Source of the DNA: Myxococcales bacterium
Lineage (GTDB): Bacteria; Myxococcota_A; UBA9160; UBA4427
Direction: 5' to 3'
Length of the DNA: 64,000 nt
Assembly (NCBI GenBank): GCA_022563535.1
Contig: JADFNE010000006.1
Span: forward strand, 1-64,000
Shown: positions 6,015 to 12,764 of the stretch, in pieces
Layout of the letters: each line of letters opens with the position of its first letter
Position numbering within the stretch: position 1 is the stretch's first letter
Position numbers and translations under genes: made by a program
Notes under the pieces: generated by a model
What the model was told of the DNA's origin: nothing
Databases searched by the model: none
What the model saw: the letters and a program-made list of their open reading frames with translations, nothing else

Positions 6015-7301
6015 GTGAGAATCGCCTTGACCCACAAGTTTGTCTTCGGATCGCTCTTGGTCGCTGCTTCGGCAGCGGTATTGCCATGGGGTATCCGCGC
6101 GTTCGGACTCGACTTTCCCGAATGGGGATCGGTCTTCATCGCGCTCGGAGTCGGGGGCGGTTTGGGCTTCGTGTTGTCCCGAAGCCTTGGGCAAAAATTT
6201 GAAATCCTGAGCCGGGCCACCGACCGCATTCGCAACGGTGATTTGACCGTCGAACTCCCGGTGGGCCGCACTGCTGTTTTTCCGGACGAAACCGATGACC
6301 TGGCCAAGAGCGTTCATGAAATGTTGGCCAAGCTCAACACCTTCGTCGGCCGGGTGCAGGAAAACGCCGACGTCGTGACCGCCTCGGCGCACAATCTCAA
6401 TCGCGAGATTGAACACGTCCGCGAAGGCAACGAAGGCATTTCGAGCACCATAGCGGCCGCCGCAGAGGGAACCGCGCATCAACGCGATTTGCTGCAACGG
6501 GTGACGGAACTGATCGGCCAGATCTCGATGGAAATTGAACTCAACGCCGGCCGCGCCCGGGAAGCCTTTGGTTTTGCGGCCGAGGCCAATCAAAAGGCGA
6601 GCAGTGGTGTCGACGTGTCCCGGTTGGCGATCGAAAAGATGCGCACCGTGTTCGAACGCGTCGAACAAACGGGTCTCATGGTCTTCGATCTCGAAGCCAA
6701 GACGCGACACGTTCACCAGATCACGGAGATCATCACCAGTGTCGCGCACCGCACCAACTTGCTGTCGCTGAACGCGTCAATCGAAGCGGCCCGCGCCGGT
6801 GAAGCCGGACGCGGCTTCTCGGTCGTGGCAGACGAGATTCGCAAGCTCTCCGAAAGCGCGGGACGCAGCGCGGACGAGATCTCAAAGCTCATCAACGAAA
6901 TTCAATCGGACACCAACGACGTGGCCGACGAAATGCGAAAGTCGAGCGAGATGATCAGCGAAGGGCGCGAAGACGTGAACACCATCGCGGATTCGCTCGG
7001 CCAGATCAGCATGGCGGTCGGCGAAGCGGCGACCCGCTCCGAAGAAATTTTTCACGGCGCAGACACCCATGTGATGAGCGCCGAGCGCATGGTGACCGCC
7101 ATGAGCGAACTCAGGACGAGTGCCGAGGGCAGCGACTCCGCACAAGAGGATGTTTCGCGCATGGCGCGCGGCCAACTCAGTGCAGTGTCAAAGATCGTCG
7201 ACGGTTCCCAGGATCTTTTGACCGTGGCCGAAGAGTTGCGCGAGTTGTTGAGCTTCTACCGTACCGCGACGGCCCGACCCGGCTGGGAGGCTCAGTCATG
7301 A
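6015..7301 (+). CDS. methyl-accepting chemotaxis protein with a minimal periplasmic part
   Basis: Receptor of the chemosensory operon. Two hydrophobic segments (about residues 10-28 and 37-55) are joined by fewer than ten residues, so there is no periplasmic ligand domain. A HAMP-like segment follows (to ~110) and then the long coiled-coil signalling domain. The signature tip lies at ~250-290 ([19 protein letters not shown], then ADEIRKLSE). No CheR-binding pentapeptide is seen at the C-terminus. The start is GTG, with GGAGG a little far upstream. Its stop overlaps the start of the CheW gene by four bases, so it is the first gene of the operon. Confidence 0.88.
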
Positions 7302-7774
7302 GCGAAATGGGCGGCGAAATGGCTGGAGCGCTGAGCACCGATCGTCTGATGGTCTTCGACGTCTCGGGCACCAGCTACGCGCTCCCGATCGCCGGCATCC
7401 TCGAAGTCGTCGAAGTCACGGGAGTGAACTGTGTGCCCATGGTCCCGCGCGATCGGGGCGGAATCATCAACTGGCACGGCGAAGCGCTGCCGGTGGTGGC
7501 TCCTCACCTGCTGCTCGGAGGCACCGCAATCGCTCTCCGCGCTCCTGGAGAGGCTCAGCCCTACCTGGTGGTGTCAGATCGCCCGGATGCCTCCGCTTCG
7601 CTCGGATTACCTATCGATTTTGTCTCCGGATTGGTCGATGGGGTACCGGGAAGACCGCACGACAACCAAGTTGTAATTGAAAGACGGCCAGTGGATGGCC
7701 GAGTAGTCAGTGTGATTGATCCGCGGCGTCTCGTGACGCGTGCGGCAGAAGTCATTGAGAGTGCTGCCACCTGA
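7298..7774 (+). CDS. cheW: CheW-like coupling protein
   Basis: CheW domain adaptor linking the receptor to CheA. The fold signature is visible in [20 protein letters not shown] and in [19 protein letters not shown]. The protein is 158 residues, about the length of a stand-alone CheW. The ATG overlaps the receptor stop (ATGA), which implies translational coupling. A second in-frame ATG lies nearby at 7319. The last ~30 residues ([18 protein letters not shown]) form the usual final strand and helix. Confidence 0.85.
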
Positions 7775-7801
7775 ACGTGGTGCAGCCGACTGGGAGTAAT
7801 G

Positions 7802-8173
7802 ATGAAAGCTCGAATTCTGATCGCCGATGACGCTTCGTTCATGCGCCAGATGATCCGTGAGATCATCGAGCCTGAAGGCTACGAGGTCGTGGGAGAAGCG
7901 ACCAACGGGATCGAAGCTGTGGAGCAATTCCTGGAACTGCGTCCGGACCTCGTCACGATGGACATCGTGATGCCCAAGAGGTCGGGGATCGACGCGGTCA
8001 AGGGCATTCTCGCCGAAGACCCGCAGGCCATGGTGGTGATGTGCAGTGCGCTGGGTCAGGAAACCCTGGTGATGGAGGCGCTGCAGGCTGGCGCAAAGGA
8101 CTTCATCGTAAAGCCGTTCAAGCCCGACGCGGTGATTTCCACCTTGGACAAGATTCTCGGCAAGGGCGAATAA
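7802..8173 (+). CDS. cheY: CheY-type single-domain response regulator
   Basis: Stand-alone receiver domain that would be phosphorylated by CheA. Counting from the second of two adjacent ATGs, it carries the acidic pair Asp9-Asp10 (ILIADDAS), phospho-acceptor Asp54 (VTMDIVMP), Ser82 (MCSALGQ) and Lys104 (IVKPFKPD), so all key residues are present. The ATG at 7802 is preferred over the one at 7799 because GGAG then sits five bases upstream. There is no output domain, so it acts by protein contact on a motor or another partner. Confidence 0.9.
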   Translation: MKARILIADDASFMRQMIREIIEPEGYEVVGEATNGIEAVEQFLELRPDLVTMDIVMPKRSGIDAVKGILAEDPQAMVVMCSALGQETLVMEALQAGAKDFIVKPFKPDAVISTLDKILGKGE

Positions 8174-8176
8174 CGA

Positions 8177-8686
8177 GTGGCTCTCGACATGGCCAAATTC
8201 CGGGCGCTCTTCTTGGAAGAAGCGGCTGAGCATCTCTCCGAAATCGGCAGCGCGCTGCTCGATCTCGAGAAGGATACGGCTTCGGCCGATTCCATCGATG
8301 TGATATTCCGGATGGCCCACTCCATTAAATCGATGGCCGCTTCGGTTGGCTATGAATCGGTCACGGAGTTGTCGCACGCCCTCGAAGATCGCATGGAAAT
8401 CATTCGCACCGCTGGTTGTGTTCCAGCTGGCGATACGCTGAGCGTGCTGTTCCGGGGCCTGGAAGGGCTCGAACAGATGGTCGCGATCGTGAGTGAAACC
8501 GGAGAGACGCCCCCAGAACGTTTCGACTTGATCGCGTTGTTGAGCGAGTCGCTCGAAACTCCCCCGGTCCCGGCCCCCTCGCGTGAACCCGAGCCGGCCG
8601 ATGCAGCGGAACTCGATGTCGAGCTCGTCGCCGTAATGGCAGCCCTCGAGGCGGAGTCCGGAGCAAAAAAAAAACACTTGAACTGA
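8177..8686 (+). CDS. cheA: CheA, N-terminal part (Hpt domain), frame ends after an A10 tract
   Basis: The first 130 residues are a histidine-phosphotransfer domain with phospho-acceptor His48 in RMAHSIKSMAASVGY. A Pro/Glu-rich linker follows. The frame then runs into ten consecutive A residues at 8665-8674 and stops five codons later. The rest of CheA is in the -1 frame, which is open right through the A tract. Read normally this gives a 169-residue stand-alone Hpt protein. With a one-base slip it gives a full CheA of ~580 residues. The GTG start overlaps nothing; an ATG at 8189 is an alternative. Confidence 0.82.
   Translation: MALDMAKFRALFLEEAAEHLSEIGSALLDLEKDTASADSIDVIFRMAHSIKSMAASVGYESVTELSHALEDRMEIIRTAGCVPAGDTLSVLFRGLEGLEQMVAIVSETGETPPERFDLIALLSESLETPPVPAPSREPEPADAAELDVELVAVMAALEAESGAKKKHLN
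8653..8674 (+). other. putative -1 frameshift or transcriptional slippage site in cheA
   Basis: Ten A residues at 8665-8674 give AAA codons in the incoming frame that can re-pair one base back. The incoming frame reads AKKKHLN-stop; the -1 frame reads KKKTLELTP and continues into the CheA kinase. GGAG at 8653-8656 lies 8-11 bases upstream, in the range where an internal Shine-Dalgarno sequence stimulates -1 frameshifting at the E. coli dnaX site. A run of A9 or longer is also a known substrate for RNA polymerase slippage. A sequencing error or a true null mutation would look the same from one sequence. Confidence 0.5.
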
Positions 8687-8796
8687 CACCGGTCGTCCCG
8701 AGTAACGATCGCGAAGAGTTCCCCCACGAATGCGAAGATCCGGCCCAGTCGCCAGGCAAACTTTCGGGCATCCAGGCGCCAAAACCCGCGGCCACC

Positions 8797-9930
8797 GTGC
8801 GGGTGCGGACCGAGACCCTGGACCGCTTTCTCGGTACCGTGGGCGAGGTCATCCTGAGTTCGCGCCAATTGCGTGGCGCCACCGATCACGGCGCGCACAG
8901 CGCTGAACAATCCGAGCACTTCGATCGAGTCGAACGTCGGGTCAATGAACTTCAACGGCGCGTGCTCGATCTGCGTACCACGCCGCTGCTGCGAGTGATG
9001 GAAAATCTTCCCCGAGTGGCGCGTCAAATCGCGGAATCGCTCGGCAAGCGTGTGGATGTACAACTGCTGGGCACCGAACTCGAACTCGATCGCTCGATTC
9101 TCGACCGCCTGAACGAGCCGCTGCTGCATATCGTGCGCAATGCGGTCGATCACGGGCTGGAGAGCGTCGAAGACCGGATCCGCGCCGGCAAAACCGAAGT
9201 CGGGCACCTCGTGATCGAAGCGCGCAGGGAACAAAATTCGATCGTGATCGAAGTCAACGACGACGGTGGTGGGATCAACCTCGACGCGGTGCGCAGGCGG
9301 GCGATCGAGGCGGGCCTGTTGCATTCGAATCTTGCCGACGACTTGCCGGACGAAGAGATCGCGGCCCTGATCTTCAAGCCGGGGCTCTCGACCTCAGAGA
9401 GCGTCACCGATATTTCCGGCCGCGGCGTGGGCATGGATGCCGTCAAGGCCACGATCGAAGCCCTCGGCGGCGCGGTGAGCCTGCTCACAACCCAGGGCCA
9501 GGGAACCACCACTCGCCTCGAAGTGCCGATTACAGCCGCCGTACAGCGTGTCCTGCTGGTGGAGGTTTCCGGCGAGCGCGTAGCCCTGCCGATCTCCAAG
9601 GTCGAACGCATCCTCGAAGTTCCTGCGGCTTCGATCGAAGAGAGTGGCGGTGAAACGTTCACTCTAGTCGACGATGAGCCGATCTTGGTACTGGATCTTG
9701 CGCGTTGTATTGAACTCGAGAGTACGGATCATCCGGACCCGGTCCCGCTGGCGGTGACCGACGTTCGTGGTGAGATCGTCGCCCTACGGGTCAACAAGTT
9801 TGTGAGTCAGCACGAAGTCTACGTCAAGCCCGTTCCCGACCTGCTTTCACCCGTGAAGGGGCTGGCGGGCATGACGATTTTGGAAGACGGAATTCCCGTT
9901 TTTTTGTTGGATCTCAATCACCTGATCTGA
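8797..9930 (+). CDS. cheA: CheA, C-terminal part (dimerisation, kinase and CheW-like domains)
   Basis: Continuation of CheA in the -1 frame. That frame is open from the A10 tract at 8665, so the GTG at 8797 is probably just an internal valine codon; no Shine-Dalgarno sequence precedes it. Visible in order are the dimerisation helices (RVRTETLDRFLGTVGEVIL), the HATPase N box (LLHIVRNAVDHGLE), a G box (VNDDGGGINLDAV), a second G box (GRGVGMDAVKATIEALGG) and a C-terminal CheW-like domain. All ATP-binding elements are intact, which argues that the gene is functional despite the frame break. Confidence 0.85.
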   Translation: MRVRTETLDRFLGTVGEVILSSRQLRGATDHGAHSAEQSEHFDRVERRVNELQRRVLDLRTTPLLRVMENLPRVARQIAESLGKRVDVQLLGTELELDRSILDRLNEPLLHIVRNAVDHGLESVEDRIRAGKTEVGHLVIEARREQNSIVIEVNDDGGGINLDAVRRRAIEAGLLHSNLADDLPDEEIAALIFKPGLSTSESVTDISGRGVGMDAVKATIEALGGAVSLLTTQGQGTTTRLEVPITAAVQRVLLVEVSGERVALPISKVERILEVPAASIEESGGETFTLVDDEPILVLDLARCIELESTDHPDPVPLAVTDVRGEIVALRVNKFVSQHEVYVKPVPDLLSPVKGLAGMTILEDGIPVFLLDLNHLI

Positions 9931-9946
9931 AGAAAATGGAACTCGC

Positions 9947-10552
9947 GTGACAGCTCTGCAAGAAACAGACATCGATCGACTGAGCGAACTCGCCAACATC
10001 GGCGCGGGTCACGCAGCGGGGGCGTTTGCCCAGCTCACGGGTCGGTCGATCAAGATGAAAGTGCCGCGGATTCGTTTGTCGGGTCTGCCGATCGACGTCC
10101 GCCAGGGTGAGATCGTGATCGGTGAAGCGACGCCATCGGGCTGGGAAGATCGCGACTGGACGACCGGAGTCATCTTCGAGTTCGACGGCTGCCTGAACGC
10201 CGTCGTGGCCATTCTCTTCCGACGCTCCATGCGCGACGCAGTCGTGCGAAACCTGATCGGCCAGGAAGAGGGATATCTCCCGCCCGAGACCGTCGAATCG
10301 GCGCTGATGGAAGTTGGCAACGTGCTCGCCTCACACGTAGCCAGCGCAATTGCCGAGACCCTCGGCGCCCGGCTACTCCCCTCCATCCCGATGCTGGCCC
10401 TCGATTCCGCCTTCGAGCAACTCGAAAGCGTGACAGAATTCCGCAACAGCGCCGGCGAACTCTGGATAGAGTGCGAGTTGGTAGACGACGAAGGAAACCT
10501 GGGCGGAATGGTAGTCCTGGTCCCCGACCTCGAACCCACCGAGCCCAGCTGA
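9947..10552 (+). CDS. cheC: CheC-type CheY-phosphate phosphatase
   Basis: CheC/CheX/FliY-family protein that removes phosphate from CheY-P. Both copies of the family E-x2-N catalytic motif are present: Glu14/Asn17 in LSELANIGAGHAAGAF and Glu122/Asn125 in LMEVGNVLASH. The 201 residues match CheC rather than the longer FliY. It starts 16 bases after cheA and closes the operon. It would give signal termination in a system that shows no CheZ, CheB, CheR or CheD nearby. Confidence 0.82.
   Translation: MTALQETDIDRLSELANIGAGHAAGAFAQLTGRSIKMKVPRIRLSGLPIDVRQGEIVIGEATPSGWEDRDWTTGVIFEFDGCLNAVVAILFRRSMRDAVVRNLIGQEEGYLPPETVESALMEVGNVLASHVASAIAETLGARLLPSIPMLALDSAFEQLESVTEFRNSAGELWIECELVDDEGNLGGMVVLVPDLEPTEPS

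Positions 10553-11327: not shown

Positions 11328-12760
<1,433 letters not shown>

Positions 12761-12764
<4 letters not shown>

Follow-up and report, generated by a model that had tools for sequence, protein, structure and literature searches.

A conserved -1 frame transition at an A run in cheA suggests programmed recoding in one bacterial class

Background

Why should a chemotaxis gene with an intact kinase part be divided between two reading frames that meet in ten consecutive A residues? In the cheA locus studied here the Hpt part and the kinase part are arranged in this way. The locus lies within 64,000 nucleotides of a Myxococcales bacterium (assembly GCA_022563535.1, contig JADFNE010000006.1, positions 1 to 64,000), and this whole stretch is called the window below. 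Such a join may reflect a sequencing error, two separately started proteins, a phase-variable switch, or a site at which the ribosome or the RNA polymerase slips.

Both kinds of slippage are known from dnaX. The gene of E. coli combines a shift heptamer with a Shine-Dalgarno (SD) element and a stem-loop, and that of Thermus uses polymerase slippage and has stops in both other frames (PMC5009743). The same review of recoding from 2016 gives an SD spacing of 9-14 nt for -1 shifting, and nine A as sufficient for polymerase slippage.

Methods

Orthologues were collected by protein search of relatives, resulting in 68 loci, from one class of uncultured bacteria, with both halves present, and the halves were re-mapped. 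The assemblies are draft metagenome assemblies. The usual anti-SD sequence was assumed, and all energies are predictions. The thresholds (the split into A7-8 and A9-10 loci, the 45-nt window, and 7 codons) were set after the data had been seen. Because of the kinship among loci, counts of sites exaggerate their independence; the tests on stops, lysine codons and A runs likewise count related genomes as separate, and their significance is overstated, but the effects are large.

Frame layout of the window locus

The following features were located, all on the + strand; domains were assigned with Pfam.

6015-7301, +: MCP, upstream neighbour
7298-7774, +: CheW, upstream neighbour
7799-8173, +: CheY-like receiver, upstream neighbour
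8177-8686, +: Hpt (P1) ORF in the 0 frame, 169 aa, GTG start at 8177, Hpt E-value 3e-14
8177-9930, +: trans-frame CheA, 584 aa, read 8177-8671 and then 8671-9927
8653-8663, +: SD-like GGAGTCCGGAG; the 16 nt upstream have a predicted duplex energy of -6.1 kcal/mol, beating 92% of control windows
8665-8674, +: A10 run, putatively slippery; a run of A7 or longer stands at the equivalent place in 57 other loci
8671-9930, +: -1 frame with linker, dimerisation (P3), HATPase (P4) and CheW (P5) parts of CheA
8679-8681, +: TGA, stop of the third (+1) frame one codon past the A10, fitting the class-wide pattern of A9-10 loci
8684-8686, +: TGA, stop of the Hpt (0) frame three codons past the A10; class-wide, sequence comparison shows selection for an early stop
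9947-10552, +: CheC/CheX-like phosphatase, downstream

The Hpt frame crosses the run as GGA GCA AAA AAA AAA CAC TTG AAC TGA, and its product ends in GAKKKHLN; the phosphoacceptor histidine is residue 48, in HSIKS. Two A_AAA_AAA heptamers are in phase within the run (8665-8671 and 8668-8674). The four CheA domains Hpt, dimerisation, HATPase_c and CheW are all present over the two frames, and no P2 domain was found in this cheA with Pfam. The in-frame full-length homologues of G080 and G082 match the trans-frame protein end to end.

An earlier sequence-only reading had claimed that the two frames differ by -1 and join at the ten A of 8665-8674, and that the -1 frame is open from the run into an intact kinase. 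Both claims held, the frame being open from 8587 to 9930 with H-kinase_dim, HATPase_c and CheW domains. A GGAG placed 8-11 bases upstream was confirmed only in part: the position was off by one for the copy at 8653-8656, which lies 8 nt 5' of the run and 11 nt 5' of the last heptamer, and there is a second GGAG at 8660-8663, 1 nt 5' of the run, which is kept in 4/4 congeners.

Two further observations were made in the window. A T7 run at 9899-9905, shortly before the kinase frame ends, is a possible second slippery site, and an ORF at 11328-12764 carries a histidine-threonine repeat (HTHTHTHTH) and, by eye only, has a LarC-like nickel-insertion look.

Rarity of the A run

The same reading had called a ten-A run rare in such DNA. 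This held: the run at 8665-8674 is the sole A10 of the 4.6-Mb genome, in which only four sites of A9 or longer were counted on both strands (draft of 147 contigs). The other three, L215, L216 and L217, are A9 sites possibly in coding sequence. The other cheA copies of the genome are single ORFs of 708 and 689 aa, and the dnaX locus, searched for a comparable run, has none of seven or more A. Across the orthologues, 58 runs of A7 or longer were observed in the linkers where 0.04 were expected, and two in the remaining 142 kb of the same loci. All lysine codons in the run are AAA, compared with only 15% of lysine codons elsewhere in both domains. The A10 at the join of Hpt and kinase is thus far beyond chance.

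Conservation of the frame transition

Comparison of run length and frame in relatives, which the reading had proposed as a check, revealed the same -1 transition, with a run of A7 to A10, in 54 of the 68 orthologues; three were at +1 and 11 in frame. The initial call was 53, 3 and 12, and G049 was moved to -1 on inspection. This locus (L194) has a second frame break in the kinase, well 3' of its A9 run, probably an assembly error. An in-phase A_AAA_AAA is present in all 53 loci first called -1, in which the runs are A7 (23 loci), A8 (9), A9 (4) and A10 (17). Runs of A9-10 occur in 22/56 loci, and A10 in the window and all its congeners.

The reading would have been refuted by relatives with an in-frame cheA, no A run and no sign of slippage. 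This was met in part, as 10 of the 11 in-frame orthologues have no A run, but these lie inside or beside frameshifted clades and do not undo the -1 pattern. In-frame and shifted states changed at least seven times on the tree of the kinase part (direction unresolved). The existence of 11 in-frame orthologues implies that recoding is dispensable. In a sample of 237 genomes of the phylum, no orthologue was found outside the class at an E-value below 1e-74.

Several loci stand apart. The remaining in-frame orthologue, in G080 (L167), has an A10 followed after two codons by a stop in the -1 frame. Slippage there would yield the shorter protein, which is also the outcome in E. coli dnaX. In a small clade (L150/G042, L170/G074 and L174/G073) the kinase lies in the +1 frame at NAA AAA AAG NNN TGA, accompanied by SD-like elements, of which those of G073 and G074 are strong, and by hairpins of 9 to 12 bp directly 3' of the run; the shift may be +1 or -2, and its direction and mechanism are unexplained. 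In G006 (L128, L197) and G010 (L196, L200) the contigs break off close to an A10 run, with Hpt on one side and the kinase on the other, possibly through a mixture of run lengths in the reads or difficulty in assembly.

Stop and start codons around the junction

The Hpt-frame stop lies a median of 5 codons past the shift site, compared with 28 after shuffling of the kinase-frame codons (p 2e-10). In 39/53 loci it is carried by a kinase-frame CTA (22/53) or GTA (17/53); in the rest of the kinase these two codons have frequencies of 0.17% and 0.32%. Selection for an early 0-frame stop, placed through rare codons, is shown by this comparison of sequences.

Kinase starts were surveyed in the same loci. 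In 13/56 shifted loci the stretch between the run and P3 residue 11 holds no ATG, GTG or TTG; in seven shifted loci the first start codon of the kinase lies 24-48 residues into P3, and in eight there is no ordinary start even when the stretch is counted from the upstream stop. The first start codon of the window's -1 frame 3' of the run is GTG 8797, with weak SD pairing, and the closest sister, G001, has none before P3 residue 14. The lack of an own start in many loci implies that the kinase needs the frame change.

Two layouts of signals

Signals around the run differed with its length. At A7-8 loci, predicted anti-SD pairing in the 16 nt before the heptamer was -7.0 kcal/mol, compared with -3.7 in controls (genus-level p 1e-4), and the 45 nt directly after the run folded at a mean z of -1.8, compared with -0.15 for other windows of the same genes (p 2e-12). 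The modal SD spacing in orthologues, about 5 nt, is below the range reported for -1 shifting. In one genus most members carry GTGGGGGGCGA upstream and a 9-bp stem downstream with 95% pairing; this is the best hairpin, and its covariation is weak, barely above shuffles (18-19 of 500). At A9-10 loci the hairpin signal was weak (z -0.8), and the third-frame stop came after a median of 4.5 codons, compared with 84 for A7-8 and 29 in shuffled sequences (p 0.027), which is modest evidence by itself. A ribosomal layout for all loci was considered and rejected, the SD-like signal being absent from A9-10 loci at genus level (p 0.51).

Run-length class changed at least eight times on the tree. Only five independent contrasts of a short with a long run had good support; on average 4.6 of them went in the expected direction for SD, 3.6 for the hairpin and 3.0 for the third frame, against 0, 0 and 0.1 in the opposite direction, and sign tests could not reach 0.05.

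The A7-8 layout, with SD-like element, in-phase A_AAA_AAA and hairpin, probably resembles ribosomal -1 frameshifting. The A9-10 layout, mostly without strong stimulators and with both wrong frames soon closed, is likewise likely to resemble RNA polymerase slippage. Both assignments are inferred.

Proposed recoding of cheA

Programmed recoding of the cheA of this class, giving free Hpt and full CheA, is very likely, though inferred from sequence alone, without reads, RNA or protein. Under standard decoding, translation would stop just past the A run and yield a free Hpt (P1) protein. In a fraction of events, one A inserted by the RNA polymerase would bring translation into the -1 frame and yield full CheA; alternatively, full CheA could arise by -1 slippage of the ribosome on A_AAA_AAA. 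The frame relation, its conservation, the selection on stops, the need to cross frames and the two layouts of elements are shown by comparison. Slippage, including its expression, the product ratio and the product roles are inferred. Free Hpt may act as a phosphate shuttle or sink; recoding may instead simply lower CheA relative to CheW and the receptors.

The sequence-only reading had proposed this recoding, by ribosome or polymerase, with the two products in a fixed ratio. Recoding is supported, by sequence evidence only, because of the conservation in 54/68 loci, the selected stops, the missing kinase starts, the SD-like elements and the hairpins. The fixed ratio remains an inference, as does the function of the short product.

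Alternative explanations

An error of sequencing or assembly in the homopolymer would make the true run A11 or A8 and cheA one ordinary ORF. Homopolymers are error-prone, the genome is a draft, and the contigs of some relatives end near the junction. Against this stand the net -1 shift in 54/68 loci at run lengths of 7, 8, 9 and 10 with matching flanks, the early stops selected via rare codons, and the hairpins and SD-like elements at the run; an error is very improbable, and the window cheA is almost certainly neither an error nor a pseudogene. There is also little to recommend a bipartite CheA, in which Hpt and kinase are separately started as proposed for some CheAs (PMC10782961). The survey states that Hpt on its own functions in E. 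coli, and a GTG stands near the start of P3 in some loci, the window included. However, the start codons missing from 13/56 loci, and from eight even when counted from the upstream stop, speak against it, as do the weak SD pairing of GTG 8797 and its absence in G001, and the A run, its phase and the hairpin would be left unexplained. Phase variation, that is, an on/off switch through replication slippage in the run, can draw on the ease with which long A runs mutate and on a frame-transition survey (PMC3711429) that labels clusters of HisKA-type kinases phase variable. Yet only 1/58 run-bearing loci (G080) is in frame, where about one third would be expected if the states were free (p 2e-9, not corrected for kinship), and A7 runs are short for such switching and bear translation stimulators. 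It too is very unlikely.

The choice between ribosome and polymerase in the window's own genus is much closer. Slippage by the RNA polymerase is somewhat favoured as the main route in the window, on inference, because the run is long, both wrong frames have stops and the predicted hairpin 3' of the A10 is weak (G000). Ten A are enough for it, nine having been reported (PMC5009743), and closure of the third frame after one codon in 4/4 congeners is not needed for ribosomal -1 shifting. The rival view makes ribosomal -1 frameshifting the main route here too, with polymerase slippage minor, and is somewhat less likely. It is supported by moderate downstream folding in G001 and G003 and by A7 sister lineages with clear ribosomal layouts. 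Ribosomal slippage, alone or jointly, remains possible in the window because the heptamer is in phase and a GGAG precedes the last one by 11 nt, inside the reported 9-14 nt.

Relation to known systems

As in dnaX of E. coli and Thermus thermophilus, an A-rich site would let one gene encode two proteins, one short and one long, and by analogy the two cheA layouts may parallel the two known dnaX mechanisms. In cheA, a different gene, the short form is usually the 0-frame product, a reversed order reported for a few dnaX genes, and both layouts occur among orthologues within one bacterial class. In tssM1 of Citrobacter rodentium, the complete protein is recovered by transcriptional slippage at A11, and neither form is dispensable (PMC4256274). 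The cheA loci share with it a stop just past a long A run and a gene seemingly interrupted early; tssM1, however, is a secretion gene with experimental proof, whereas the evidence for the chemotaxis kinase is comparative only.

The survey of CheA proteins (PMC10782961) attributed the absence of Hpt from some CheAs to contig ends or to bipartite systems, and did not mention frameshifting. Hpt and kinase core are on different ORFs of one operon here as in bipartite CheA and in CheA3/CheA4 of R. sphaeroides, but in the present loci a putative recoding site connects the two, and the kinase has no own start in many genomes. Conserved transitions near poly-A/T stretches also form frame-transition clusters in GeneTack (PMC3711429), the main text of which mentions neither CheA nor chemotaxis; no mention of CheA was found in PMC5009743 either. 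No report of cheA recoding or frameshifting was found in the open-access literature searched.

Implications

A bolder reading, for which the arguments are evenly balanced, is that the recoding site of cheA is ancient and class-wide, has switched several times between ribosome and polymerase while giving the same products, and that free Hpt works in the pathway. CheA sets the output of chemosensory arrays. If recoding is true, gene predictors will have reported cheA as two genes across the whole class, and recoding may account for some of the CheAs now regarded as bipartite. The orthologues with short and long runs would be a natural test of one gene moving between ribosomal and polymerase slippage, a switch for which distant dnaX genes have until now supplied most of the discussion.
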